Source of the DNA: a virus | Virus record (IMG/VR): IMGVR_UViG_3300035157_000326 | Coordinates: 1 to 20,449 of that record | DNA length: 20,449 bases | Direction: 5' to 3' (one strand) | In this document: piece after piece, positions 987 through 18,871 of the stretch | Layout of the letters: every line of letters begins with the position of its first letter | Position numbering within the stretch: position 1 is the first letter of the stretch | Program-made: the position numbers and the translations under genes | Notes under the pieces: model-generated | The model's database searches: none | Told to the model about the DNA's origin: nothing | What the model saw: only the letters and a program-made list of their open reading frames with translations

Positions 987-2401
987 CAGAAGCTACCTGT
1001 ATAATTACCAAATTCACCAAATGGGTTCTTCTCACCCCAATCAATTAAATCATCTGCACCATCTTCAATCGCTTTATTTTGATCCCATTCAGTGCTCTGG
1101 TTATCAATTGTAGAGAATGTCCCTAATGTATATATGGCATTAGATTCAACCCCTCTAATCATGTCACCATCAAGGAAGTTACCTGTACGGTTCATGACTT
1201 CAAGTGTATTTGTAACACCATTCCAATCAGCAACCTCAGCAATAGTAGCACTCATTAGATCGTACATAGTTGCTTGTCCACCACTAGTAGAAGTCTCCTC
1301 CCAAGCATTAATAATATATTTTACATTGGCAGAATCATAATAGAAGAAACCAGGAGTAGTAGTTGCAGTAGTTCCATTGTATTGATAAACATAACTAATA
1401 CGTTTATCTTCAAACTTCCAATAGAAATACTTCTTCTGTGTAGTAGTAGCAAATACAGGATCAAATGCACCAAGTGCAGTTACAGTAATAACTTTATTAG
1501 CAGAAGTCCACGTTCTTCCTGCACCTTGTGCAGTAAATCCACCTATAACAACATGTTCATCATTAACAAATTGAATTGCTGTTGGTGGAGCATCAATAGT
1601 AATGGTTGGAGGATTGTTGCCAGTAACATCATACCCACTACCACCATTAACAATAGTAAGAGTAACTACACCACCGTCCATTATTGAAGTTGTGATAATT
1701 CCACCACTTCCATTACCAGCATTACCAATAGTGACATTTGGTGCTACGTTATATCCAGTACCAGCAAGTGTTACTGTTGCTAGTGATATTGCACCAGTAG
1801 AATCCACTTCAAGAGTTCCAGTTGCAGTTTGTCTAGTAGTAAGTCCGACATTAAGAGTGGTGATATTACTAAACTCTCTTTCAATATCATCAACTTCATC
1901 AATACCTGTATCAAACTTATCAGCACCCTGCTCGTAGATCTCAGCAGTGAGTTGATAGAAATACTGTTTGCCTAACTGGAAGAACGGATTCTCTCGTTCA
2001 ACATACTTGATCTCATATAGATCCTCTGTCAATGGGAAGTATATTAAATCTCCTTCATTAGGTCTTCCATCTACAGAAAGGTTCAATGCTGGATTAGCAG
2101 ACTGTTCCCATCTTCTACGTGACACAACAAAACTAATCTCATCGGTTATTCTCAAACCAAACTTACTTACAAACTCAGCACCAGCACCAAATCCCTCAAC
2201 ATTCACAAGAAACATCTCTATCATATAGCTCTGATTAAATTCAGATTGTATGACTTCTCCAAGAGACTTATCCTTAAGATGTACTCTAGGAATATAAAAC
2301 ACATCAGAACCAAACAACTTGATCTGTTCATCAACCAAGTCCTGTACAAGATTCTGTTCGGTGGCAACACCACCGTGTTGAGGAAAATATACTTTTTTCA
2401 T
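986..2401 (-). CDS. gp14: Neck protein gp14 with an internal expansion
   Basis: 471 aa against 256 in T4 gp14. The N-terminal part (residues 1-180) carries the recognisable gp14 signature: MKKVYFPQHGG, 'EQNLVQDLVDEQIKLFG', 'VFYIPR', 'RRRWEQSANPAL', and 'ENPFFQLGKQYFYQL'. The extreme C-terminus (about 440-471, 'DWGEKNPFGEFG') also looks like the family end. The extra length sits at about residues 185-435. That segment is low-complexity beta sequence with two 'GxGYxxxPxxTI' units (about 210-226 and 250-270). In T4, gp13 and gp14 form the neck complex that closes the filled head and receives the tail. The ATG overlaps the gp13 stop by four bases (ATGA), and its own stop overlaps the gp15 start by one base. 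No strong Shine-Dalgarno precedes it, consistent with coupled translation. Confidence 0.9.
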   Translation of the reverse strand: MKKVYFPQHGGVATEQNLVQDLVDEQIKLFGSDVFYIPRVHLKDKSLGEVIQSEFNQSYMIEMFLVNVEGFGAGAEFVSKFGLRITDEISFVVSRRRWEQSANPALNLSVDGRPNEGDLIYFPLTEDLYEIKYVERENPFFQLGKQYFYQLTAEIYEQGADKFDTGIDEVDDIEREFSNITTLNVGLTTRQTATGTLEVDSTGAISLATVTLAGTGYNVAPNVTIGNAGNGSGGIITTSIMDGGVVTLTIVNGGSGYDVTGNNPPTITIDAPPTAIQFVNDEHVVIGGFTAQGAGRTWTSANKVITVTALGAFDPVFATTTQKKYFYWKFEDKRISYVYQYNGTTATTTPGFFYYDSANVKYIINAWEETSTSGGQATMYDLMSATIAEVADWNGVTNTLEVMNRTGNFLDGDMIRGVESNAIYTLGTFSTIDNQSTEWDQNKAIEDGADDLIDWGEKNPFGEFGNYTGSF

Positions 2402-3213
2402 CCGATCATATCAAATGGTGGTAATTCGTATGTAGTAGTAGATGCTTCTTCTATCTCAGCAATTTCTTTCTGAGCATCTTCAAAGATCTCTCTACCATTA
2501 ATGGCAACTCCACCTGGAAGTTGGATACCATTAAACTTAATTAGGTTTTGACCCCACTGTCTTTTAATAAGAGCAGTAGTATACTTCTTCAAGAAGATAT
2601 CACTATAGACTTGAGTATAGGTATCAGGATCTAATGCTCTATGACATTCAACAATGACATGAACATCTTCATCAAGCATATCCTTACCTACATCAATATA
2701 AAGTCTGTCCTGTCTCATATTAAATCTGAACTGAACAAAAGAACCATTGTTCAGAATCATATCCATACTCTCCATCCACTGCTTAACCATGTAATAGTTA
2801 AGGAAGTCAAGAGAACCTACAGCATATAGATCATTTAAAAAGATTTGATACTCTATACCAAAAAGGTTATTTCTAATTGCGTTACTAGCAAGACCCCATA
2901 CTTTAGACACACCAACAACATCAGCAGGTAAATCAAGATATCTATCCCTTACTTCCCACACTGTAGTGTTGGGAGCAGTACCTAACGTGGTTGTAGTATT
3001 CTGTGTTTCAAATTTTGTTTCGTCATCAGCAGTAAACTTATGCTTCATATAAGCAAGTTCAACACCATCGTAATGTCTCATACGATAATATTGAAGAGCA
3101 TCATCAATTGAGTCCTCTATCTGATCGTCATCCACATTGATCTCTAGGACTGGGTGACCCAACTTTCTCAAGCAATAATCTTTTAATTGGTCCCTACTGG
3201 CAGGTTCAGCCAT
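2398..3213 (-). CDS. gp13: Neck protein gp13
   Basis: 271 aa; T4 gp13 has 309. The N-terminus has the family hallmark: a helical opening 'SRDQLKDYCLRKLGHPVLEINVD' followed by 'DQIEDSIDDALQYYRMRHYDG'. Further on are 'RYLDLPADVVGVSKVW' and, near the end, 'KKYTTALIKRQWGQNLIKFNGIQLPGG', a stretch shared by gp13-type neck proteins. The protein joins gp14 in the head-completion neck. A modest Shine-Dalgarno (TAGG) lies 8-9 bases before the ATG. It is the first gene of the tightly overlapping gp13-14-15-16 block. It sits 26 bases after the second oxygenase gene, and I see no terminator between them, so it is probably read through from the enzyme cassette. Confidence 0.92.
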   Translation of the reverse strand: MAEPASRDQLKDYCLRKLGHPVLEINVDDDQIEDSIDDALQYYRMRHYDGVELAYMKHKFTADDETKFETQNTTTTLGTAPNTTVWEVRDRYLDLPADVVGVSKVWGLASNAIRNNLFGIEYQIFLNDLYAVGSLDFLNYYMVKQWMESMDMILNNGSFVQFRFNMRQDRLYIDVGKDMLDEDVHVIVECHRALDPDTYTQVYSDIFLKKYTTALIKRQWGQNLIKFNGIQLPGGVAINGREIFEDAQKEIAEIEEASTTTYELPPFDMIG

Positions 3214-3239: not shown

Positions 3240-3776
3240 TTATTTAGGATCTACTTGAGCGTTAACATGCCAGGATAAAATAGTCTTTCTATTATCGGTA
3301 TCATTTACAGGAGCACGATGTGCTACAAAACTAGGGAAAGTCATGATATCCCCCTCTTCAACATCAGGTACAAAGACCTCATTAGTCATAGTATTTTTAA
3401 ATTCTGTACAAGGAGATCCTTCTGGAAATTCCAAATAGTATACTGAAGTGAACATGCATTCCTCATGTACATGCCATCCATGTTTGCCACCTTTTTCATA
3501 TTGTTGATACCAAAAATTAGCCATAGAAGCATTTTTATATCCCATTTCAGTAGTTACATTCTTAACAAACTCATATATTGGTTGTTGTATATCTATCCAA
3601 TATAATTTTCTAGAATATGAATCAGTACCCCAATCAGAAAATATATTCATAGTATCACTTTTAAGACTTTTCCCGTGACGATCTGAATTAATTAGTCTTA
3701 ATGTTTGATCTTTATACTTCTCATGTTCTGGAAATTTTTCTATAGAACATATAGAATCGTAAGTAAATATTTTCAT
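3240..3776 (-). CDS. 2-oxoglutarate/Fe(II)-dependent oxygenase, second of a pair
   Basis: 178 aa with the double-stranded beta-helix pattern of the 2OG-Fe(II) oxygenases. A 'FWYQQYEKGGKHGWHVHEE' stretch (residues 88-106) is followed by 'SVYYLEFPEG'. Later comes 'EEGDIMTFPSFVAHRAP', holding the distal histidine (H153), and 'NRKTILSWHV', holding an arginine (R163) suited to 2-oxoglutarate binding. The phrase 'H..H....SVYYL' is like the 2OG-FeII_Oxy_5 group, small oxygenases common in cyanophages. The proximal metal motif is ambiguous: H104-E105-E106 would give the usual HxE, while H102-V-H104 would be an unusual HxH. Members hydroxylate or otherwise oxidise proteins, nucleic acids or small molecules; the substrate here is unknown. 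The start overlaps the upstream oxygenase stop by four bases (ATGA). It shares no obvious close identity with its partner, so it does not look like a recent duplicate. Confidence 0.82.
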   Translation of the reverse strand: MKIFTYDSICSIEKFPEHEKYKDQTLRLINSDRHGKSLKSDTMNIFSDWGTDSYSRKLYWIDIQQPIYEFVKNVTTEMGYKNASMANFWYQQYEKGGKHGWHVHEECMFTSVYYLEFPEGSPCTEFKNTMTNEVFVPDVEEGDIMTFPSFVAHRAPVNDTDNRKTILSWHVNAQVDPK

Positions 3777-4369
3777 AGTACTTGCGTTTTTAAATATGAT
3801 GGATCTATTTGTATTAAAGTATTTACAGTAAATCTATATGGATGTGCATTATAACTAGATGAATATATTTTATGTGGGATAGAACTGTCAAATAAAATCA
3901 TTCTTCCTGGTTTATAATCTGAAAGATACTCAACTTCACTTAGATCATCAGTTCTAAAGACTGTTCCACCATCCCATTCCAAATCCCATTTTGAATTTGC
4001 ATAATACAATAAACTAAGATAAGAACTGTCATTTGTATGTGCATCTGCATGATATCTATTAGTTGAGTTATCTCTATTAAATAAATTAATCCATGATTTT
4101 TCAATCTTACCACGATTGACAATTCTTTTTAATGTAAAAGATTCTGGACTTGTTATACTATTTAAAATAGATTTAATAAATCCTACATCTACATTTTTAC
4201 CAAAACCACTGATACCTTTAAAATCCTGTAATACTGTATCATTAGAAGGAACTAAAGGATACTCCTGAGATCTTAATTGAAAGAATATATCATTGATTAA
4301 TGATACAGGACAAAGATCATCATAAACTGTAAGTAACTTTCCACTCTTGGTATTAATTCTAGTTTCCAT
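3773..4369 (-). CDS. 2-oxoglutarate/Fe(II)-dependent oxygenase, prolyl-4-hydroxylase-like
   Basis: 198 aa. The iron and cosubstrate residues are visible: H107-A-D109 (HxD) in 'NRYHADAH', a following 'SLLYYAN...WDGGTVF' strand pair (residues 119-138), the distal H166 in 'SSIPHKIY', and R179 in 'HPYRFTVN' as the likely 2-oxoglutarate carboxylate binder. This layout is that of the prolyl-4-hydroxylase-like branch of 2OG-Fe(II) oxygenases. The substrate cannot be told; prolyl, aspartyl or small-molecule hydroxylation are all possible. The ATG lies inside the last codons of the halogenase gene (overlap 11 bases, different frame). A GAAGGAG Shine-Dalgarno-like stretch sits within that gene, somewhat far (about 13 bases) from the ATG. 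The gene is visibly AT-rich: of bases 4081-4140 I count 14 G or C. Confidence 0.85.
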   Translation of the reverse strand: METRINTKSGKLLTVYDDLCPVSLINDIFFQLRSQEYPLVPSNDTVLQDFKGISGFGKNVDVGFIKSILNSITSPESFTLKRIVNRGKIEKSWINLFNRDNSTNRYHADAHTNDSSYLSLLYYANSKWDLEWDGGTVFRTDDLSEVEYLSDYKPGRMILFDSSIPHKIYSSSYNAHPYRFTVNTLIQIDPSYLKTQVL

Positions 4370-5978
4370 TTTTATAAATGTGCTCCTTCAAAAATTCATG
4401 ATGTGATGGTAATGTCTTCACATATTCAATTACTTCTTCCCTATGTTTTATCCATTGATTAAAAGTTTCTTGTACTTCCTCTAAAACTTCTGGATGATCT
4501 TCTACAAGTATTTTCATAAAATGTTTGGTTAATGGTTTATACCCAAACCCTGCTTGAATATAATTCCATCCAGTAGTTTGTATTGTCCACCTCTTATTCA
4601 TCATATTTCCAAAGACACATGCTTCAAAGGCATCTTTAAAGGCAACCATATTATTAACTGACACATCATATATGTTTTTAAAGTCTTCAACTTCATGTGC
4701 CAATCCAACTAATTTTCTTCTAGTCTGAAATTTCCAGTAAGGAGTATCCTCTCTTGTACCCATTGCATAATGCATTGCAACAAAATCCCTAAACCCATCC
4801 ATTTCATTTCTTGAAGCAAAATTATGACAATCAATATCATATTGATTGCAATTAAAATTGCGATCTTTAATTATATCACACAATCTCAGTGCAATACTAT
4901 GGGTTGAGACTAAGCTAGTTGATTCTAATGGTTCAACAAATGCATAAGATAAACCAACCCCAACAACATTTTTAACCCATCCTTTTTCACGAATACCATG
5001 TCTAATATTAATCTTTCTTACTTCTGCTTCTTTTGCACGTTTTTCAAATCTAGGATCTCTTGCTAAATGTTTTCTAAATTCTTTTTCTGCTGTTTCATCA
5101 TCAACAAAATCACTTGAGTATACATAACCAGTTCCTATCTCATTCCACAAAGGAATATTCCAGACCCAACCATTCTCAATAGCAGTACAATTAGTTTCAT
5201 TACGTATCTCTGTTTCTTTATCAACATAAGGAATATGAGTTGCCAATGCACTATCATTAGACAACCAAGGTTTATAAGACAAGAACTTAGATCCCATCTC
5301 TTGTTCTAATAAAACAGATTTAAATCCTGTACAATCAACATATAAATCAGCACTGTACTTTCCAGATTTTCCAACTACAGATGTTACATATCCATCTTCA
5401 TCTTTTTCAGTGCCGACAATATCATCATAATGATGTTCCACACCAGATGGAATACAAATCTTTTCTTTTAAAAACTGTCCTAATTGACCAGCATTAAAAT
5501 GATATGCAGTCTCATGTCTAAAATTAAATCCATCTATATATCCCTTTTCATTTTTAGTACAACGATTAAATCTTGCTAAGTATGTATTTTCATTATGAAA
5601 TTCTGTAAATGAATGATCATCAAGACCATCAACACTAGCAGCTATCTTACCCCAAGTCATAATACCATCTTGTAGATTATAATTACCACCAAAGGGATAT
5701 TCTATTTCATGTCCAATCTCTTTAAAATCTGTAAATCTAATAGAGTTTTTATATGTGCCATTACAATAAGGCATCCACTCTTCATCTTCCAAACCAAGTA
5801 ATTGAAAATAATTATTGATAGATCCGATAGTAGATTCTCCTACACCAACAGTAGGTACAGAATCTGATTCCACTAAAGATATTTTAATATTATCTTCAGC
5901 AAAAAATTTAGACATAAAAGAGGCGGTCATCCATCCAGATGACCCACCTCCTACGATAAGTATACTTTTTATTTTCAT
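4359..5978 (-). CDS. Flavin-dependent halogenase (tryptophan-halogenase family)
   Basis: 539 aa, full length for the family (PrnA and relatives have roughly 510-540). The FAD-binding GxGxxG-type motif is at residues 9-16 (VGGGSSGW). The second hallmark, WxWxIP, is at 271-276 in 'GWVWNIPL'. The catalytic lysine that handles hypohalous acid in PrnA (K79) matches K77 in 'GTYKNSIRF'. The active-site glutamate (PrnA E346) matches E352 in 'FVEPLESTS'. A 'VYVDCTGF'-like segment (212-219) is the usual flavoprotein strand. The enzyme should use FADH2, O2 and halide to halogenate an aromatic or other electron-rich substrate, needing a flavin reductase from elsewhere. A viral homologue, VirX1 of cyanophage Syn10, was shown to halogenate with a preference for iodide. 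It is followed by two overlapping 2OG oxygenase genes. No clear Shine-Dalgarno precedes the ATG (TTATTTTATAACATG). The cassette lies between fibre and neck genes, an uncommon place for an enzyme. Confidence 0.93.
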   Translation of the reverse strand: MKIKSILIVGGGSSGWMTASFMSKFFAEDNIKISLVESDSVPTVGVGESTIGSINNYFQLLGLEDEEWMPYCNGTYKNSIRFTDFKEIGHEIEYPFGGNYNLQDGIMTWGKIAASVDGLDDHSFTEFHNENTYLARFNRCTKNEKGYIDGFNFRHETAYHFNAGQLGQFLKEKICIPSGVEHHYDDIVGTEKDEDGYVTSVVGKSGKYSADLYVDCTGFKSVLLEQEMGSKFLSYKPWLSNDSALATHIPYVDKETEIRNETNCTAIENGWVWNIPLWNEIGTGYVYSSDFVDDETAEKEFRKHLARDPRFEKRAKEAEVRKINIRHGIREKGWVKNVVGVGLSYAFVEPLESTSLVSTHSIALRLCDIIKDRNFNCNQYDIDCHNFASRNEMDGFRDFVAMHYAMGTREDTPYWKFQTRRKLVGLAHEVEDFKNIYDVSVNNMVAFKDAFEACVFGNMMNKRWTIQTTGWNYIQAGFGYKPLTKHFMKILVEDHPEVLEEVQETFNQWIKHREEVIEYVKTLPSHHEFLKEHIYKNGN

Positions 5979-6019: not shown

Positions 6020-6295
6020 TTATTCCCCAGGATTTCTTGTCGTTGCTTCATCACTCATTTGCTTTGCTGTCTTAATATTAGCAGCATTTACAACTGCTTC
6101 TTTATCAGCAGGAATAGATGTGGTATTAGGATCAGCTGTCATACGAGCAACTTCTGCATTATATATTTCATCCATTGCCATACGAGCTCTGTTTTCAACT
6201 ACGTTCTTCACCCATTCGGCAGGATCATATGCAACATATTCCATAGCCTTTTGCTGGGCTTCATTCAACGTAACTGTGTAGGTTGTGTCTGCCAT
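6020..6295 (-). CDS. Conserved cyanophage protein, 91 aa, function unknown
   Basis: A short acidic, mostly helical protein, Ala-, Glu- and Asn-rich, without signal peptide or membrane segment. It begins MADTTYTVTLNEAQQKAMEY and contains 'AEWVKNVVENRARMAMDEIYNAEVARM' (about 27-53). That stretch resembles small proteins I associate with cyanophage tail and fibre gene clusters, but I cannot name a function. It is the first gene behind a perfect TATAAATA late promoter element and sits 41 bases ahead of the halogenase, with no terminator between. It therefore probably shares that transcript. Only a weak ribosome site (GGAAC) precedes the ATG. It could be a minor virion component or an assembly helper. 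Confidence 0.75.
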   Translation of the reverse strand: MADTTYTVTLNEAQQKAMEYVAYDPAEWVKNVVENRARMAMDEIYNAEVARMTADPNTTSIPADKEAVVNAANIKTAKQMSDEATTRNPGE

Positions 6296-6329: not shown

Positions 6330-6337
6330 TATTTATA
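6330..6337 (-). promoter_or_regulatory. T4-type late promoter element TATAAATA
   Basis: The minus strand reads TATAAATA, identical to the T4 late promoter -10 consensus recognised by the phage sigma gp55. It lies 35 bases ahead of the 91-aa gene, in the 52-base gap after the last C1q-like gene. Initiation about a dozen bases downstream would leave a short AT-rich leader. It is well placed to drive the 91-aa gene, halogenase, oxygenases and probably gp13-16. Confidence 0.65.
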
Positions 6338-6347
6338 ATGTTTTTTA

Positions 6348-6884
6348 CTATGCAATTTGAACGCCAGCAAAGTGGTTCCAACTTCCACCATGAGCATTAC
6401 CACTATTGTATACAGTACATTCTGCATAATCTCCTTGATTCAAATACCAAGTAACAGAAACTACTGTAGGAGCATAATTTCCAGTTTGCCTATCACTAAT
6501 AGAATGACTAGCATTAGTACTACCATTTAACATAATGGCAAAACGGGTATCACTATCACCACTACTAGTTATACCAGACATTGTAAGTATATAACATCCT
6601 GTTTTTGGTGCGGTAAACCTACCAGTTGAAGCATTAAATCCACTATTGGTACTATTACCACTGGCAACCTCACTTGTAGTATAAGTTTGCCATACGCTTC
6701 CTTCACCATGATTACTATTGGGATATCCAGAAAAGAAAGATCTAACAACATGACCACCACAATATTGATCAGAATTAGTAGATCCACCTGCTAATCCATG
6801 CTTTTCAACAACATCTGTATTATCAACTTTAAGATTTACTTCAGTATCATACTGAAAACCATCTCCACGTAATGTAATTGCCAT
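6348..6884 (-). CDS. C1q-like jelly-roll virion protein, third of three paralogues
   Basis: 178 aa. The C-terminal about 95 residues carry the C1q/TNF-like pattern: 'GRFTAPKTGCYILTMSGIT' near 88-106, 'DTRFAIMLNG' near 111-120, and 'LNQGDYAEC' near 149-157. It ends 'GSWNHFAGVQIA'. The N-terminal about 80 residues (MAITLRGDGFQYD...) differ from the neighbours and probably attach the domain to the virion. C1q-fold domains trimerise and bind ligands, so a receptor-binding or fibre-tip role is likely but inferred. There is no collagen-like Gly-X-Y tract. A strong GGAGGA Shine-Dalgarno lies about 9 bases ahead of the ATG. The gene begins 4 bases after its upstream paralogue ends. Confidence 0.8.
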   Translation of the reverse strand: MAITLRGDGFQYDTEVNLKVDNTDVVEKHGLAGGSTNSDQYCGGHVVRSFFSGYPNSNHGEGSVWQTYTTSEVASGNSTNSGFNASTGRFTAPKTGCYILTMSGITSSGDSDTRFAIMLNGSTNASHSISDRQTGNYAPTVVSVTWYLNQGDYAECTVYNSGNAHGGSWNHFAGVQIA

Positions 6885-6888
6885 TTTA

Positions 6889-7449
6889 TTATCCTCCGTA
6901 TGGTCCTATGTATGTTCCTGAAAAATGATTCCAATCATTAGTATGAGATTTAACACCTTCATGATCTGCCATTGCAACCCAATCACCTTCTGCTAAATTA
7001 CAGATATAAGTAGCTGGTCTATTGTTATGACCTCCTCCATATTGAGAAGTGTTGATAGTTCTTCTACTATGGTATGTAGCATTTACATACAGTGCATGAC
7101 GATTATCACTACCACTAGAATTGGTTATACTATCAATAGTGAACAAATATATCCCAGCTCTAGGAGCAGTAAATCTACCATTAGTAGTATTAAAACAATC
7201 TCCATTTTGCCCACTATGACCATGAGATGAGGTATAATCTCTAGCATGTGTTGTTGTGCTACTAGAGGTTTCAGTAGTTGATGCATGATATTTAAACCAA
7301 GGTCTTTTTCTAGCAGCAGAGTTGCCAGATCCATCATTAGAACTAATAGCACCATTTGAATGGTGTGTACACATTATATTACCGTTAGTATCACGGTAGA
7401 ACATTGCACCATCAGAAACTATCTGATTTTGATTAATTGAAGTTGCCAT
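6889..7449 (-). CDS. C1q-like jelly-roll virion protein, second of three paralogues
   Basis: 186 aa. The C-terminal half has 'GRFTAPRAGIYLFTIDSIT' (about 91-109), 'DNRHALYVNATYHSRRTI' (about 114-131), 'NLAEGDWVAMADHEG' (about 150-164), and the terminal 'NDWNHFSGTYIG'. This matches the other two members and the general C1q/TNF-like pattern. The N-terminal region is different (MATSINQNQIVSDGAMFYRD) and is rich in Ser, Thr, His and Asn around residues 55-85. The ribosome site is weaker (GGATAA) than for the other two. It sits 4 bases after the first paralogue and 4 bases before the third. A fibre-tip, adhesin or decoration role is inferred from the fold and from the adjacent fibre gene. Confidence 0.8.
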   Translation of the reverse strand: MATSINQNQIVSDGAMFYRDTNGNIMCTHHSNGAISSNDGSGNSAARKRPWFKYHASTTETSSSTTTHARDYTSSHGHSGQNGDCFNTTNGRFTAPRAGIYLFTIDSITNSSGSDNRHALYVNATYHSRRTINTSQYGGGHNNRPATYICNLAEGDWVAMADHEGVKSHTNDWNHFSGTYIGPYGG

Positions 7450-7453
7450 ATGT

Positions 7454-8026
7454 TTATCCGATTAGTGTTCCACCCCATTTAGACCAGTCACCACCATGTG
7501 CTCCTGACCCTTCATAAGTTCCTATTTGAACATAGTCTCCAGCTGCTAAACTAAGATTTATATTCTGATTGGTAATACCTCCATGTCCCTGACCTTGAGC
7601 CATACAAATAGATCTAGCTGCATAAGATCCATTTACATAAACTGCTATTCTACAATCAGTAGTGGTACTATTAGTTATACCGTGACCACCAAAATGATAG
7701 ACACCTGCTACAGGAGCCGTGAATCTATCACTACCACACCAGTTACCACCATTAACATTCCTTTCAACTCTACCTTGACCATCCCTAGCAGAACTAAAAT
7801 CATTCCAAGTATGTTGATTTTGCTGACCAGATGTATTTCTTTGAGTATGACAAAGTGGGTGATATTGTTTATAAGTTCCTTGAGCAGCTCCTTGGCCACT
7901 ACCCTTAGATTCCTGTACTTGTATACCACCTGATAGGACACCCTCACTACTGACTGTTGATCCTATATATTTTTCAATTGTATTCTGGTCAGTTGAGATG
8001 CTGTCACCTCCAAATGTTATTGCCAT
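7454..8026 (-). CDS. C1q-like jelly-roll virion protein, first of three paralogues
   Basis: 190 aa. The conserved half starts at 'DRFTAPVAGVYHFGGHGIT' (about 100-118), then 'DCRIAVYVNGSYAARSI' (about 123-139) and 'LSLAAGDYVQIGTYEG' (about 157-172). It ends 'GDWSKWGGTLIG'. This is the C1q/TNF-like beta-sandwich pattern. The N-terminal half (MAITFGGDSISTDQNTIEK...) contains a Gly/Gln-rich, possibly flexible stretch at about 38-55. The opening MAITF.GD resembles that of the third paralogue. A strong AAGGAGGA Shine-Dalgarno (8036-8043) overlaps the last codons of the tail-fibre gene. Lying directly after that fibre gene, the protein is a candidate for a tip or adhesin subunit, as small genes after fibre genes are in many T-even-like phages. 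Confidence 0.8.
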   Translation of the reverse strand: MAITFGGDSISTDQNTIEKYIGSTVSSEGVLSGGIQVQESKGSGQGAAQGTYKQYHPLCHTQRNTSGQQNQHTWNDFSSARDGQGRVERNVNGGNWCGSDRFTAPVAGVYHFGGHGITNSTTTDCRIAVYVNGSYAARSICMAQGQGHGGITNQNINLSLAAGDYVQIGTYEGSGAHGGDWSKWGGTLIG

Positions 8027-8297: not shown

Positions 8298-11200
8298 TTG
8301 TGCAGTAACAGTACCCACAACAACCAAGTTATTGGAAGTATTGAATGTTGCACAAAGACTACCATTAGTTTCTACTGTTACATTAGCATTACTTGCTGCT
8401 ATAACTTTTGAGTTACCATTAGCAATCTCTGTAGCATTAACATTAAGTGTTGTCCACTGAACACCACTACCAGTACTTTCTAGGTACTTACCAGCAGAAC
8501 CAGCAGAACCACCAGCAGTTAGTGTGCCAGCTAAGATTGCATTACTGTATGTCTTATTGGTTAGTGTCTGTGTACCATCTGTTGTTACAGCAGAACCAGA
8601 TCCACCACCTCCAAATGGAGTGCCAAGTACTTGTGTAGAACTTAGAACCTCAGTTCCGTTGATGTAAATTGCTTTACCAGTTGGAAGGTTAATGTTCTCA
8701 CTGATATCAAATCTATCACCAGCATCATTGAAAGCAATTGACTTGTCGGTTGTACCCTTAATTGTAAGTCCACCTCCATCGGCGGTAACATCTGTAGGAC
8801 CACCTGCACCAAATGTAGCACCTGTTGCAGATCCTGTACCACCGAATGAAGCATCCAATGTTGCAGTAGTTCCTGACAATGCAGTAACCTTAACAGTACC
8901 AGATAGTGTTACACTTGCACCACCACTAGTTAATGTAATAACAACGCCTGGAGCAACATTTGTAGTATCACTAATGTTAGTGATAGTATTCTGTCCAGAA
9001 GTCATGTTACCAGTGAAACTTCCAGCAGCAACTTTAGCAAGAGTTAAGTTTCTATCTTTAGTTTCAACATCTACAGAAGCAACTGTTGTTGTAGTACCCT
9101 TGACTGTTAGGTTACCAGCAACTTCAAAGTCACCAGCAACAGAAGCTAATGTAGAAACATATGTTCTAACCGCTTTCTGTGTAGGAACTTTAACGTCACT
9201 ATTCTGTGATAGTGTTCCATCTGTTGAGAATTCGTTAATAGAAGCACCCAACTGAGCACCAATTGAACCAAGTCTCAAGGACTGTAGACCAGATAAGTCA
9301 AACGCAGAAGCATCTAGAGTCGCCTTACCAGTCGCCTGTTCAACCCTGAAGAACTTACCAACGGCAAAGTTACCATCTTGGTCAGTAGAGACGTAGTAAA
9401 CACGTCCTGGGCGGGTCTCATCGGTTTCCTGTGAAGGGACATTTGCCTGTGTTGACAAATAAGGCCAGTTTGTAGTTGTTCTATTTCCTGTACCAACGTC
9501 TAGGAAGTCGTGTGCAGTTAGACGAACTTGAGAATATCTGTAACGAGTCTTGAATGATTGACCATTAGTACATCCAATAGTCTTCTCATCAGCAAATCTT
9601 AGTATAGTAATACCAGTTGTATCTGGTGTAACAGCACTTAACTTGAAGAACTCATTGTCAATCTTAATGTAGTCATTTGCTGCGAAACTAACATTAGCAG
9701 CTTTAACACGCATTGTTAAAGATGAATTATCAAGATCCTTAATGGTCTTATCTTGAGCAGCAACTTTCTGTGCAAGTATTGTGATAGTAGCACCAGAAGA
9801 ATGTGCAATTGCACTTGTTCCTTCTACAGCACGTGTAAGTTCAACAGATGTTGCAGATGGGAACGATACAACAGTGAACATCTCTGTTCCGATAACAAGA
9901 TATCCACCGATAACCATTCCTGTAACACTACCAACATTAGCAGTGTGTGGAGAAGCAGCACCAACAAGAATATTGGACTGTAGTGTAGTAGTTGCTCCTT
10001 GATCTTTATAAAGAGCAATATTTGAATCACCATCATGAGCAGCAGCAGTACTTCCTAAGAGTCCTCTAGTATATGTAAGAGTACCTCTTCCATCTGGAGC
10101 ACTGTAACTAGCACTAGAAATAACATATGATCCAGCATCATTGTTGACTCCATCATCAACCATTGAAACAGAACCACCTTGGTCTGGAGCAGATCCTAAA
10201 CCTTCAGCAACAAGTAAGAATCCTTTCTGACCACTAGTAGCATCTGAGTTATTCTTAAGAGTAATTGTTGCACCTGATGTAGCACCAGTAACAACTTCAC
10301 CTTGTTGGAAAGTTCCCTTAACTGGGAAGTAGTAAATCTTATCGGCAGTAACTGATTGATCGCTTCTTAGTTCACCAATAGCATTTGATGTACCACCAGT
10401 AATGTATTCATTTGCTGAGAATGTACCACTCTTAGAAGCATTTGAATCAGTACCAAGCATTAAACCGCCTACAGTACCATTAACTGTTGCCTCAGCAGCA
10501 TCAAATCCTCTAGCAATACAACCGTACTTACCGTAAGATGAGTTACCAGATACAGCACGAATTCTTGCACCACCAGTTGAGATATAAGAGATATGTGCGT
10601 AGTATGTGAAGGAGGATACAATCTCCATTGCAGATGTACCCTTACCATAGAATCCTACACCGCCCTCTAAGACCTGTGTATAAGCGTCAAAGCAAGCTGA
10701 TTTGAATGATGGGGTAGAAGAGTTATCCCAGTGTCTATGAGCACCTCCATCAATGAATGCACCAACAGCAGCACCACCTATAGCAGAACAGTTCTGAACG
10801 TATGGTGATTTCTGAATTGGTGAATTAGGATCTAATCTGAAATAACAACCCTTAATAGTAGAACCATCAATGTTCTTATCATCACTACCATTAGGAACGA
10901 ATCCTGTCATTCCTTCCATCACCAAGTCCTTAACAATGGTATGAGTACCAATGTAGAACATGGTTGCATCACTGTTGTTATTTGTTGCTGCTGAATTAAT
11001 GGTTATGTATGGTTCTGTCTTAGAAGTACCAGCCATATTACCATTACTAATAGCAGTTGTTACAACACCAACCAAAGTAGTAATAGCAGAAGCAACAGTA
11101 GGACACTTAGGATTAGCACCATCTGCTGTAATATTTGTATCTGTAGTCTGATTCTCACTGTTTCCAGCAGACTTAGTTACTGTTATGTTACGTATAACTT

Positions 11201-13801: not shown

Positions 13802-16800
13802 TTAAATAATCCAGACCTGAGTATGAGGTGGCTGGAATAGTTGAACTTGTACTAATGCAATACCAGAAAGTGCAATTCTTCCACTGCCTTGATATCCTTT
13901 ACGTACAAATGATTCATCAACATTATTGACGTTAGAGATTCTACCAGAACCTGCATATCCATAAGCACGAAGATCATAACTGTCTCCAGTGATATCAATC
14001 TCAACTTGTTTTTGTTCCGCAAATGTAAGGAGTGGATCTCCTGAAGTTCCTCTGACTGTGAGTACTCCACTCTGACTGAGTAATTTGGAAGTTCTGCTTT
14101 CTGCTCCAACTCCAATAAAGGAGAAGAGCATTTGCTTCTCTTCTGGATTGAAGGTAAGAGATTCCGCTGCACCTGAAAGTTTTCTGAGTGATCCAAATCC
14201 AACAAAGTCTCTTGCTCTGGTGATGGTTGCTTCTCCAGAAACTCTTGCTGTACCAGAACCAAAGTATACAGGAGAGAACCGAACTGTAGATTCTCCAAGT
14301 GTCTTGACTGTACCTTGACCAGATTCGCTTCTTGTTCTTGTAGTTGTACCCTGACCCAAGAAAGAGAAGAGCATTTGCTTCTCTTCTGGATTGAAGGTGA
14401 GAGATTCAGCAGCACCCTGGAATTTCTTAAGTGATCCAGATCCAATGTAAGGTCTACTACGAGCAATATCACCATTACCATAAACTCTGAATAGAGTTGG
14501 AATTGATGTGATAGCAATTGCTTGAGATTCTGCTGCTCCATTCCAAGTCCAGAGTCCACCAGTTCCTTCAATATCTGGAACATAATGAGTCTTGGCAGAT
14601 CCAGTAATTCTAATAAGACCAGAACCAATATTATTTGGAACCCATCTAACTCTTGGAGTTCCATCAAGTCTGATAGTACCACCTTTAACGATTCCTTTAA
14701 TGGTTGTACTTTCTGCTCCTGTTCCTGTAAAGGAGAAGAGCATTTGCTTCTCATCAGGATTGAAGGTAATAGATTCAGCAGCACCAGAGAATTTCTTAAA
14801 TGTACCAGAACCAATCCATACAGGAGCAAATCTGTAAGTAGATTGAATTTCAATTCTAACTCCACCAACAGAATTCCAGTTAGGTGTGAATCTGTAATCT
14901 GCTGCCTCTGGATATATTGAAATTCTTCCATCACCTTCTGGAGGAACAACAAATGTACGTTCCGATCCTGCTCCTGTGAAGGAGAAGAGCATTTGCCTCT
15001 CATCAGGATTAACCGTAATAGATTCAGCAGCACCACTGAATTTCTTAAATGTACCAGAACCAATGAAGTCTCTAGATCTTGTGAAGTCAGTGAATCCACC
15101 AACTCTGAATAATCCAGTGCTTTCATATGCAGCAGCAGATGTTGCTGTTGATCCACCAAACGTAAAGAGTATACCATCACCTTCTGGAGGAATAACGAAT
15201 GTACGTTCTGATCCTGTTCCTGTGAAGGAGAATAGAAGTTGCTTCTCTTCTGGATTGAATGTAATACTCTCGGCAGCACCAGAGAATTTCTTGAGTGAAC
15301 CTGATCCAATATGACGTAAAGATGCTTTCGCAACTGCATCTCCAAATATGGGGATTCTGATATCTCCAACTTGAGAGATAGTTGCCCTGACAACTCCTTC
15401 TCCACGAAGACGAATATCTGTTCCTTTCTCTGGAGGATTGAATGTAACTTTCTCGGTTCCTGTTCCTGTGAAGGAGAATAGAAGTTGCTTCTCTTCTGGA
15501 TTGAAAGTAATACTCTCTGCTGCACCACTGAATTTCTTGAGAGATCCAGAACCAACAATTGCTCTTGCTCTTGGTTCTTCTCCTTCTCCAGTAACCTTGA
15601 TGACACCGTATCCAGGATATTTGGGTATAAAGAATACTGGGAAAGCATCGCCAGAAATACGAACTTGCGTTCCTTCCTCTGGTGGATTTGCAGTAAAGGT
15701 TTCTGTTCCAACTCCAGTAAAGGAGAAGAGCATCTGCCTTTCCAGTGGATTCCAAGTAGCAGACTCTGCTGCACCACTGAATTTCTTGAGAGAACCAGAA
15801 CCAATATGTGTTGCTGGAGTAATAGACTCTGCACCAGTTCCAATAATTCTGACAGTACCAGAACCTGGATGAAGTAGACTGAATAGTGTATATGCTTGAG
15901 ATCCAATCTTAAAGAGACCGTCTGCTTTCTCAACATTAGCAATACATTCAGCAGAACCACTAAGTTTCCTGATACGTCCAGATCCAATCTCTGTTGCTGG
16001 TGTAAAGCTCTCTCCAACTGTACCACCAAATCTGGTAAGAACTCTTCCAAAGTAAGGAGGAGTCCAGAATGTAGCACCAGCACCAAAGATACTAATACCA
16101 GCTTTACCAGAAACAGAGTAACCAGTAGAAACAATATTCTCAACAAAGTGAGTCTTGGCAGTGCCTGTAATTTCAAATGCACCGTATGGACATAACTTAG
16201 AACGAGTTCCAAGTATCCAACCATAATCTCTATGTTCTGGTGCGTTAGCATCAGAAACAAGACCATAATCTTCAGTAACAGATGGTGTTGTTAACTGATT
16301 TGGAATTGTGTATGTAGAACCTGGTGCTATAGCAAGTGTAGTTCCAGGAGCAACCTTAATACATCCATTTGCAGCAGTAGTATTGGTGGATATTGTTCCA
16401 CTATTTGCTACACAGTTAGTTAGATTCTGATTAACAAGGAATCCATAATCAAGATCTACATCATCTATACATGCAGAATTGTTATATGCTTCAGTATGTT
16501 TTTCATGTCCTTCTTCACAAGTAATCCATTTAAGTTGAGCATCACCAAGATTAGTATGTCCATCATAGAAATCAATATTACCAAGATTGATATATTCACT
16601 TCTAAGAACGTAAGTATCAAGTGTGAAGTTTGCAAGTTCTTCTAACTCATAACAATCTGGTTTTCTTGGTAAGAGGTTAATTGAACCAGATCCAACATAA
16701 TCAAATGATTTCCTTAGTTCAACTGTGGCGAAGTTTCTAAGTCTTCCAGAACCAACATAAGACTCAGTGTGTTTCTCACTAGTAATACCACCAATGAAGG

Positions 16801-18871
16801 AGAACAACATGTCTCTTTCAAGTGGATTGAAGGTGAGAGATTCAGCAGCACCAGTGAATATTGGGATTCTTCCAGATCCTTCAAATACTCTTGCACGTAG
16901 ATCAATAGAATCACCACTGATTCTATAAAGACCTGTTGTATGTTGAGCACTCCAACGAACAGACTCAGCAGAACCTGAAAGTTTTCTAATTCTTCCAGAA
17001 CCAACATAAGATTCTGTATGCTTCTCTGTTCCAACTCCATTGATAGAGAATAGAAGTTGTCTCTCAAGTGGATTCCAAGTAACAGATTCTGCAAGACCAG
17101 AGAATTTCTTAAGACTTCCAGATCCAACAAAGTCTCTAGATCTTGAAACATCAGTGTCAGAGAAGAATCTATAAAGACCTGTAGCACCTAAAGCAACAGA
17201 TGTTGATTCAGCAGAACCACCCATTGAGAAGAGAGTTCCTTGACCCACTTCAGAAACATCAAGTGGTAATGCAGTCTTACCAAGTATCTTAAAGATAGGT
17301 GGAGTTCCATCACTAGTAAAGTGGAACTGCTTAGTAACAATAACATCAGTTTCAGATGTAATCCTAAAGAGACCATATGGTGTTCTTAGATCACTTCTTT
17401 CTCCTAATATCCAACCATGATCTATCTGCTGTGGAGCATTAGGATTAGCAACATCACCATAATCAATTGTTACTGATGGTGTTGTTAACTGATTTGGTAT
17501 TGTGTAAGTATTGCTTGGTGCAATAGCAAGTGTAGTTCCTGGAACTATCTTAATACATCCACTTGCTGCTGTTGTGTTAGTGGATATCGTTCCACTAACA
17601 GTAACACAATTTGTTAAATTTGTATTAACAAGAGTTCCATAATCAATTTCACTATATGGAACAAATGCAGTTTGAGTATAAACTTCTGTATGTTTCTCGT
17701 GTGACCACTCTGTAAGTTGACCCAGTTGGACAGCACCGAGTTTTTTAGTTTGATGCCAATTATCATTAGGATCAGTAAGACCTTTCCAATGAGGTGCAAG
17801 AGATTCATGAACTTCTAATGTGAAGTTAGCAAGATCTGACAAGGAATGATCTGTGGGTTTCCTTGGTCTTAACTTAAGACTTCCTGAACCAATATAATCA
17901 AAAGTACCTTTCTCTGCTTCAAGCTTAGCAAAATTCCTGAGTCTACCAGAGCCGACCCAAGATTCTGTGTGCTTCTCGCTTGTTAATCCACCTGTAAAGG
18001 AGAAGAGCATTTGCTTCTCCAAAGGATTCCATGTTGCAGACTCTGCTGCACCACTGAATTTCTTAAGGCTTCCATCACCAAGAATACCAATACCAATACC
18101 AATAGTTGCGGTTCCACTAAGCGGAGTAAGTCCACCACCTGCACGAGAGGTGGTGAACGAGGCATCCGCAGAACCGAATATTCGGACCTTACCATCAGCA
18201 ATAGCACCCCATACAGCTGGAGATACTTGTCTACCAAACTTCCTTATTCTACCTGAACCTATCCATGCATTTGTTGCCTTGGCTTGTGCCTCACCAATTA
18301 CCTTCTTAAATCCAAATCTCCTTCTCCAACCATGAAGTATATGACCACGATTCTCTATGGTCACACCATTAAGTTGTGTTACTAATCCGTTATCTACAGT
18401 ACTTCCAGCATTAGCAGTAATTAATCCAAAGTCAAGTTCTGAATAACCTTCTACAATATCAGGTTTGTAAATATATGCTCTACTTTCAGTTGCACTTATA
18501 AACTTAAATATCTCAGTGCGACTTCCTATATTAGTCTGGAATGATGAAATCCTTCTTGCAGCAAGGAAACTAAGAGTACTTGCTCCATGTTGTCCAACTG
18601 TCTCTGATTTATTTCCAGCTTCATATGAATAGATGCATATCCCACCTTGACATACAATACTCGTTATAGGTGAATCATAATATTCATAACTTGCTCCACC
18701 ACCATATCTCAATAAAGGTGGCCAAGATTCATATACAAACTTTTCAATTTTAATACTGTTGTATATTCTAGGTTTAAATTGTCTTTCGTCAGATTGGCTG
18801 TTTAAAACATCACTTCCGTGATCGGAAATGATACGTGATCCGCTTTCTGAGGTATAGACGTATTGTGCCAT
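13802..18871 (-). CDS. Giant repeat-rich virion structural protein (putative fibre)
   Basis: 1689 aa, nearly all beta-type repeats. The core unit reads 'GSGSLKKFSGAAES.TFNPEEKQMLFSFTG' and occurs ten times, around residues 291, 609, 691, 1050, 1133, 1215, 1297, 1380, 1503 and 1584. Between cores lie half-units such as 'G.IRI.G.A......P...GSG'. The region between residues about 290 and 1050 also holds two copies of a long block ending 'LANFTL...', containing 'TISTNTTAA.GCIK..PGTTLAIAP'. A partial 'YSELDFGLI' relative lies near residue 140. The N-terminus (MAQYVYTSESGSRII) and C-terminus (HTQVWII) are unique. No enzymatic motif, signal peptide or membrane segment is visible. The regular repeats suggest an extended fibre or filament; the exact location in the virion is unknown. 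A modest ribosome site (AGG) precedes the ATG. The gene follows a terminator, listed separately. Confidence 0.8.
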   Translation of the reverse strand: MAQYVYTSESGSRIISDHGSDVLNSQSDERQFKPRIYNSIKIEKFVYESWPPLLRYGGGASYEYYDSPITSIVCQGGICIYSYEAGNKSETVGQHGASTLSFLAARRISSFQTNIGSRTEIFKFISATESRAYIYKPDIVEGYSELDFGLITANAGSTVDNGLVTQLNGVTIENRGHILHGWRRRFGFKKVIGEAQAKATNAWIGSGRIRKFGRQVSPAVWGAIADGKVRIFGSADASFTTSRAGGGLTPLSGTATIGIGIGILGDGSLKKFSGAAESATWNPLEKQMLFSFTGGLTSEKHTESWVGSGRLRNFAKLEAEKGTFDYIGSGSLKLRPRKPTDHSLSDLANFTLEVHESLAPHWKGLTDPNDNWHQTKKLGAVQLGQLTEWSHEKHTEVYTQTAFVPYSEIDYGTLVNTNLTNCVTVSGTISTNTTAASGCIKIVPGTTLAIAPSNTYTIPNQLTTPSVTIDYGDVANPNAPQQIDHGWILGERSDLRTPYGLFRITSETDVIVTKQFHFTSDGTPPIFKILGKTALPLDVSEVGQGTLFSMGGSAESTSVALGATGLYRFFSDTDVSRSRDFVGSGSLKKFSGLAESVTWNPLERQLLFSINGVGTEKHTESYVGSGRIRKLSGSAESVRWSAQHTTGLYRISGDSIDLRARVFEGSGRIPIFTGAAESLTFNPLERDMLFSFIGGITSEKHTESYVGSGRLRNFATVELRKSFDYVGSGSINLLPRKPDCYELEELANFTLDTYVLRSEYINLGNIDFYDGHTNLGDAQLKWITCEEGHEKHTEAYNNSACIDDVDLDYGFLVNQNLTNCVANSGTISTNTTAANGCIKVAPGTTLAIAPGSTYTIPNQLTTPSVTEDYGLVSDANAPEHRDYGWILGTRSKLCPYGAFEITGTAKTHFVENIVSTGYSVSGKAGISIFGAGATFWTPPYFGRVLTRFGGTVGESFTPATEIGSGRIRKLSGSAECIANVEKADGLFKIGSQAYTLFSLLHPGSGTVRIIGTGAESITPATHIGSGSLKKFSGAAESATWNPLERQMLFSFTGVGTETFTANPPEEGTQVRISGDAFPVFFIPKYPGYGVIKVTGEGEEPRARAIVGSGSLKKFSGAAESITFNPEEKQLLFSFTGTGTEKVTFNPPEKGTDIRLRGEGVVRATISQVGDIRIPIFGDAVAKASLRHIGSGSLKKFSGAAESITFNPEEKQLLFSFTGTGSERTFVIPPEGDGILFTFGGSTATSAAAYESTGLFRVGGFTDFTRSRDFIGSGTFKKFSGAAESITVNPDERQMLFSFTGAGSERTFVVPPEGDGRISIYPEAADYRFTPNWNSVGGVRIEIQSTYRFAPVWIGSGTFKKFSGAAESITFNPDEKQMLFSFTGTGAESTTIKGIVKGGTIRLDGTPRVRWVPNNIGSGLIRITGSAKTHYVPDIEGTGGLWTWNGAAESQAIAITSIPTLFRVYGNGDIARSRPYIGSGSLKKFQGAAESLTFNPEEKQMLFSFLGQGTTTRTRSESGQGTVKTLGESTVRFSPVYFGSGTARVSGEATITRARDFVGFGSLRKLSGAAESLTFNPEEKQMLFSFIGVGAESRTSKLLSQSGVLTVRGTSGDPLLTFAEQKQVEIDITGDSYDLRAYGYAGSGRISNVNNVDESFVRKGYQGSGRIALSGIALVQVQLFQPPHTQVWII
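14112..15732 (-). repeat. Seven regularly spaced copies of the core repeat in the 1689-aa gene
   Basis: The codons for 'MLFSF' or 'LLFSF' (plus strand gagaag/gagaat...) begin at 14121, 14364, 14733, 14982, 15228, 15474 and 15723. The spacings are 243, 369, 249, 246, 246 and 249 bases, so the period is about 82 residues. The single 369 is 1.5 periods, which points to a 41-residue half-unit. All copies are in frame and 70-90% alike by eye in the core. Confidence 0.85.
15723..18010 (-). repeat. Two-copy super-repeat of about 1.2 kb in the 1689-aa gene
   Basis: Cores at 18000 and 16800 both continue into 'TSEKHTES.VGSGRLRNFA', then a 'SGS..L.PRKP' stretch, then 'LANFTL', and then the long 'TLAIAP..TYTIPNQLTTPSV' block. 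The same nucleotides 'gatggtgttgttaactgatt' occur at 17475 and 16281, an offset of 1194 bases or 398 codons. The first copy has an extra core at 17046; the second copy is shorter (next core at 15723). Confidence 0.8.

Follow-up and report, generated by a model that had tools for sequence, protein, structure and literature searches.

Why would a T4-like phage encode a halogenase and two 2-oxoglutarate (2OG)-Fe(II) oxygenases in overlapping genes beside its tail genes, and on what would these enzymes act? The window analysed here, i.e. the whole 20,449-base virus record, is from such a phage, with homologues of gp15, gp14 and gp13 located just downstream of the enzyme genes and tail-fibre genes upstream. 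Its closest isolates are Kyanoviridae infecting Synechococcus and Prochlorococcus; Pelagibacter may be an alternative host, because the layout of HTVC008M, with oxygenases beside gp13-gp15, is related. A preliminary description had read the three genes as a cassette for one shared process, made together with virion proteins, that modifies tail or host surface proteins or generates a halogenated signal or toxin. The three ORFs, their coordinates and their overlaps were confirmed, the halogenase and oxygenase 1 (ox1) genes sharing 11 nt (4359-4369) and the ox1 and oxygenase 2 (ox2) genes sharing 4 nt (3773-3776, ATGA). The trio is part of a larger unit, preceded by a 91-aa ORF and followed by gp13 (Table 1). 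Its enzymes are of known kinds, the halogenase type being known from VirX1, and the trio itself is a small version of an adhesin-linked enzyme island that occurs widely. The conserved arrangement in related phages suggests that such phages may chemically modify their own host-recognition proteins.

Table 1. Features of the window around the enzyme genes
Feature	Coordinates	Strand	Details
gp13 (head-tail adaptor Ad2), downstream border	2398..3213	-	phrog_211 3e-45
Oxygenase 2 (ox2), PF13759/TIGR02466-like	3240..3776	-	178 aa; predicted triad H102-x-H104...H153
Oxygenase 1 (ox1), prolyl-hydroxylase-like 2OG-Fe(II) enzyme	3773..4369	-	198 aa; invariant triad, profile, AF2 model
Halogenase, VirX1-type flavin-dependent	4359..5978	-	539 aa; PF04820 and VirX1 6qgm homology
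91-aa ORF heading the enzyme unit	6020..6295	-	Same slot as YorD-like gene of relatives
T4-type late-promoter motif TATAAATA	6330..6337	-	35 nt upstream of the 91-aa ORF; sole exact copy in window
C1q-like protein, probable tail-tip adhesin	6348..6884	-	PF00386 E 2e-4, just below cut-off
C1q-like protein, probable tail-tip adhesin	6889..7449	-	PF00386 E 2e-6, above cut-off
C1q-like protein, probable tail-tip adhesin	7454..8026	-	PF00386 E 4e-3, weak
Tail fibre, 1630 aa	8031..12923	-	Five CBM_5_12 stretches, C-terminal Peptidase_S74 chaperone

The halogenase matched PF04820 (Trp_halogenase) with an E value of 7e-104 (348.6 bits, cut-off 21) and aligned over its full length with VirX1 of cyanophage Syn10 (PDB 6QGM; E 2e-139 over residues 1-537). 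The FAD motif GGGSSGW, the lysine of TYK, WVWNIP and EPLES were conserved in 14 relatives, and in 14 sequences G10, G12 and G15 of GxGxxG, K77 of TYK, W271, W273 and P276 of WxWxIP and the glutamates E349/E352 were invariant or nearly so. Homology and motifs together place the predicted protein in the VirX1-type family. Its identity to the Syn10 gene is 43.8% (about 44% to the Syn10/syn9 gene, with like motifs), and its closest isolate match is the S-CREM1 halogenase, at 47.8%. The setting in syn9 also resembles that in the window, the halogenase following tail-fibre genes and preceding a run of 2OG oxygenases. The window enzyme differs from VirX1, however, in falling into another supported subclade, in being accompanied by two oxygenases only, and in lying beside C1q-like proteins that replace the Gly-rich adhesins.

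Ox1 matched PF13640 at an E value of 1e-5, its 26.6 bits lying just below the 27-bit cut-off, and matched PHD2/EGLN1 at 5e-9 in profile searches. H107-x-D109, H166 and the 2OG-binding R179 were invariant in 23 sequences, and this HxD...H and arginine set lies in a double-stranded beta-helix fold in the AlphaFold (AF2) model (pLDDT 85), for which PHD2 and the Pseudomonas putida prolyl 4-hydroxylase (P4H) acting on EF-Tu were among the top matches (Z about 15), at an identity of 14-17%. By profile and modelled fold, ox1 is nearest to protein prolyl hydroxylases, and prolyl hydroxylation is a candidate activity. Against the FlmC family NF052475 it scored 45.1 bits (curated cut-off 240), and our literature search found nothing on FlmC. 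Ox1 also matches phrog_274, named 'DNA endonuclease V', and ORFs inside oxygenase arrays (e.g. L001, 14628-20118) carry the PHROG names of phrog_274, phrog_2954 ('ferrochelatase') and phrog_1644 ('minor coat protein'); these names, present in GenBank records, are probably wrong for the array ORFs.

Ox2 matched PF13759 (2OG-FeII_Oxy_5) at an E value of 4e-10 (40.4 bits, cut-off 27) and scored 44 bits against TIGR02466, below the curated cut-off of 62.5. H102, H104 and H153 were invariant in 24 sequences. Profile searches matched ox2 to 3bvc/2rg4 (E 1e-27), with which it has HxH in common, and 3bvc was the best Foldseek match (TM 0.74) of its AF2 model (pLDDT 85). These solved relatives of the TIGR02466/PF13759 type, which ox2 resembles in HxH...H and fold, are themselves uncharacterised. 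We considered HxH as a mark of a non-heme iron halogenase and rejected this, HxH being normal in 3BVC and 2RG4; non-heme iron halogenases carry Gly/Ala at that triad position.

Across T4-like phages the enzymes recur in a unit that we define as adhesin genes, a small ORF, a VirX1-type halogenase and then 2OG oxygenases, all on one strand. The isolates S-CREM1, Sf-FP1, syn9, S-RIM44, S-WAM1, P-RSM6, P-TIM40, S-SZBM1 and Sf-FR1 have the same order, in which 'tail fibre assembly' genes are followed by a small gene, one or often two halogenases, and a run of 2OG-Fe(II)/JmjC-type oxygenases. The 'tail fibre assembly' proteins are rich in Gly (PF21722) and match tail-fibre PHROGs, and by analogy we infer that they are tail-tip adhesins like T-even gp38. 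Array members carry PF13759, PF13640, DUF6445 and, in S-CREM1, JmjC_2. From halogenase through oxygenase array, 58 of 68 neighbouring gene pairs overlap in eight isolate genomes and the window, often by 4, 8 or 11 nt; overlap is thus the rule in the family and not chance. In S-CREM1, the adhesin is followed by a YorD-like gene, the halogenase, a gene denoted y and nine oxygenase/cupin-type ORFs with short overlaps, an array that differs from that of the window in being larger and not next to gp13; these halogenase and 2OG-Fe(II)/JmjC ORFs have been described only as auxiliary metabolic genes (PMC9964418).

The order small ORF, halogenase, y, oxygenases is fixed. A conserved protein of about 245 aa, phrog_7084 (L001, 13669-14406, and relatives), is encoded between halogenase and oxygenases in most of them. 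The window contains three C1q-like genes, the 91-aa ORF, the halogenase, ox1 and ox2 in the order of the island; the Gly-rich adhesin, the YorD-like gene and the phrog_7084 gene are absent from it, and the C1q-like genes and an unrelated 91-aa ORF, without detectable similarity to three YorD-like genes of relatives, are present instead. The trio itself is not conserved as a three-gene order: the oxygenase set ranges from none to about ten, and it is the larger, variable unit that recurs. Single-protein searches of IMG/VR with ox1 and ox2 gave no confirmed matches, so the exact trio could not be tracked there. The shared process proposed for the cassette nevertheless held at the level of the unit, VirX1-type halogenases and 2OG oxygenases being paired in overlapping genes in many T4-like cyanophages and IMG/VR contigs.

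With the Gly-rich adhesin, and not the halogenase, as anchor, a scan of IMG/VR yielded 75 newly fetched loci with the adhesin gene. A halogenase lay no more than three genes downstream in 65/65 loci with at least 2.6 kb of downstream sequence, a figure that reflects tight linkage rather than 65 independent events and partly common descent, because the adhesin query alignment was built from halogenase-linked adhesins and the loci are related. The 52 adhesin loci with at least 8 kb each held 4-10 oxygenase ORFs (median 6.5). The adhesin link is looser when viewed from the halogenase side: a Gly-rich adhesin lay within 3 kb in 48 of 62 halogenase loci with upstream room (14 without), and an oxygenase was nearby in 54 of 71 with downstream room (17 without). 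The arrays of L031, L046-L048, L055, L059, L060, L062, L063, L065, L074, L087 and L088 end in one or two further, divergent halogenases on the opposite strand.

The block occupies at least two genome positions, before gp13 and after t35 fibre genes, and the holders of the adhesin slot differ: Gly-rich proteins, C1q-like proteins (window), proteins of about 180-200 aa (L094, L097, L105) or GspG/LamG-type proteins (Sf-CH11). The three C1q-like proteins, which have a PHROG match in common (phrog_15750), are the probable occupants of the slot in the window; a C1q profile built from them found no clear relatives. The N-terminal motif MAxTLxxxGxxF, common to Gly-rich and some C1q-like adhesins (L026, L029, window 6348-8026), is perhaps a common attachment segment. 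The window also encodes a 1689-aa repeat protein (13802-18871), with repeats such as GSGSLKKFSGAAES...NPEEKQMLFSFTG, which occurs in L093 and few other loci.

Close relatives of the window vary at exactly this point. L093 resembles it in gp13-gp15 (91-98%; gp13 91%, gp15 98%) and in neighbouring tail genes (83-95%); its fibre matches that of the window over residues 1-1256 only (59%), with a different C terminus, and between fibre and gp13 it has neither the adhesin triple nor the enzymes. In L094, L097 and L105 the fibre C terminus is of the window type (63-72%). After it come the proteins of about 180-200 aa, in which no Pfam domains were found, and then between one and eight enzymes or ORFs resembling enzymes, among them a halogenase in L097. 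In these few cases, therefore, adhesins and enzymes come and go together. L103 (gp13 98%) has one oxygenase and no adhesin triple, and in the whole gp13-anchored set the association of adhesins with enzymes is only suggestive (2x2 Fisher p = 0.09). In L097, a Nol-like carbamoyltransferase gene (8498-9970) lies between the oxygenases and gp13.

The enzyme unit is probably expressed late, as had been supposed from its place among virion genes. The motif TATAAATA, the T4 late-promoter consensus, precedes the small ORF; its single occurrence in the window does not exceed chance (2 expected), so it is informative only by its position and by the pattern in relatives. There, NATAAATA lies within 100 nt before the small-ORF slot gene in 47 of 103 cases (2.5 expected) and before gp13 in 60 of 93 (5.0 expected), and is depleted before oxygenases (6 of 692, 30 expected). 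A single late transcript running from the small ORF through the oxygenases would fit this motif pattern.

The window halogenase falls in a supported clade of nine rows, the other eight of which have no adhesin detected nearby; several of these adjoin UvsX and DnaB-helicase genes, mostly without oxygenases, whereas L015 has oxygenases and is placed before gp13. The window phage may have brought a halogenase from another clade into the slot beside the adhesins, and such recruitment would favour a functional link with adhesins. Supported branches of the halogenase tree show at least 12 switches of adhesin context, a figure that truncated contigs inflate. VirX1-type halogenases lie beside UvsX/DnaB-helicase genes in the T4-like contigs L013, L014 and L018-L022, and in L013, L019, L020 and L021 they share up to 13 nt with the helicase ORF.

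Based on these data, the best-supported reading, to which we give about an even chance, is that the cassette serves post-translational modification of the phage's own receptor-binding or tail-tip proteins. During infection, the late-expressed enzymes would work within the host cell on proteins of the distal tail fibre; the likeliest substrates would be the adhesins of the genes immediately upstream, which are C1q-like in the window (three proteins) and Gly-rich in relatives. The halogenase would use reduced flavin to form hypohalous acid, which the conserved lysine would pass on to exposed aromatic side chains, and the oxygenases would hydroxylate other side chains (e.g. Pro, Asn/Asp, His, Arg or Lys); the modifications might tune receptor binding, trimer stability or the durability of the tips, and the oxygenase set would be exchanged as the adhesins change. 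In favour of this we count the 65 adhesin loci, the synteny of isolates, the varied adhesin types, the contrast of L093 with L094, L097 and L105, the two genome positions of the block, the late motif, the nearness of ox1 to protein-acting prolyl hydroxylases and the JmjC_2 protein of the S-CREM1 array, JmjC_2 being a family of protein hydroxylases. Against it we count the clade-mates of the window halogenase beside uvsX/DnaB, the halogenase loci lacking a Gly-rich adhesin or an oxygenase, and the gp13-anchored test. Some flavin halogenases are known to brominate peptides and proteins (PMC10286304, PMC12615548), and the open active site of VirX1 takes large and many aromatic substrates (PMC8407142). 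The RiPP halogenases SrpI and MibH, likened to the window enzyme by description and not by sequence, are likewise flavin-dependent and act on ribosomal peptide side chains, the MibH peptide also being hydroxylated (PMC12615548), but their substrates are peptides in biosynthetic clusters and not virion proteins. Virion mass spectrometry of S-SZBM1 detected the products of fibre genes 51-54, upstream of the adhesins, but no adhesin and no enzyme (PMC9146016); it speaks neither for nor against modified adhesins, because adhesins were not among the detected proteins. The same virion list gives no support to the enzymes being virion components.

Unlikely, in our estimate, is the tailoring of a small molecule, in which a host or phage metabolite (tryptophan, an indole or a phenolic) would be decorated to give a halogenated antibiotic, signal or detoxified compound, nearness to tail genes being due only to late expression and to a hot spot of recombination. 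VirX1 adds iodine or bromine to many small aromatics (PMC8407142), a role in antibiotic protection has been proposed for cyanophage halogenases (PMC2984593, PMC9964418), and the window's halogenase clade is located elsewhere in other phages. However, no scaffold-making gene (NRPS, PKS or prenyltransferase) was annotated beside the isolate loci examined, PHD2/JmjC-type relatives act mostly on proteins, and the linkage is tight with adhesins and not with metabolic genes. Of the targets first envisaged, action on tail proteins has become the leading reading, and nothing was found in support of a toxin or signal. The enzymes might instead modify host surface or other host proteins (e.g. an outer-membrane receptor or translation proteins), thereby blocking superinfection or redirecting metabolism. 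One of the nearest folds is the P. putida P4H-EF-Tu structure 4iw3, and such 2OG oxygenases modify translation proteins in bacteria, but late promoters and exchange with adhesins are not expected of host-takeover enzymes, and we consider this improbable.

A common process might also be lacking altogether, the interval between fibre genes and gp13 being a cargo-gene hot spot where halogenase and oxygenases built up independently. Genes related to ox2 are found at many sites in 185 phage records, the trio lacks conservation and the gp13-anchored association is weak; yet the 65/65 adhesin loci, the fixed gene order, the 58 overlapping pairs of 68, and L021, where a halogenase accompanies three oxygenases away from the tail region, make such independent accumulation quite improbable. 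Least credible, and very improbable, is that the oxygenases lower 2-oxoglutarate for NtcA/nitrogen signalling, as proposed for cyanophage 2OG genes (PMC3037559), or act AlkB-like on DNA, repair having been proposed beside uvsX/uvsY (PMC2984593). Up to ten divergent enzymes per array together with a halogenase make bulk 2OG use or a single repair activity unlikely, and both sequence and fold place ox1 nearest to prolyl hydroxylases.

That no function had been described for such a trio agrees with the literature searched, which offered guesses only (antibiotic, DNA repair, nitrogen signalling). A 2021 review gave no associated pathway for VirX1 (PMC8407142). Neither a natural substrate of viral halogenases such as VirX1 nor a proposal that halogenases or oxygenases modify adhesins was found in that literature, which covers few subscription papers. 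Viral halogenases such as VirX1 serve as biocatalysts, and in cyanophages the large families of 2OG oxygenases are usually classed with host metabolism; the fixed link to tail-tip adhesins joins these two puzzles into one testable statement on virion proteins. More tentatively, T4-like marine phages may possess a dedicated post-translational system for the halogenation and hydroxylation of their own receptor-binding adhesins, swapped together with these as part of host-range evolution, which would be the natural role of VirX1-type viral halogenases. Were this so, adhesins bearing chemical modifications would take part in phage host recognition, and neither sequence-based host prediction nor standard proteomic searches would reveal them.
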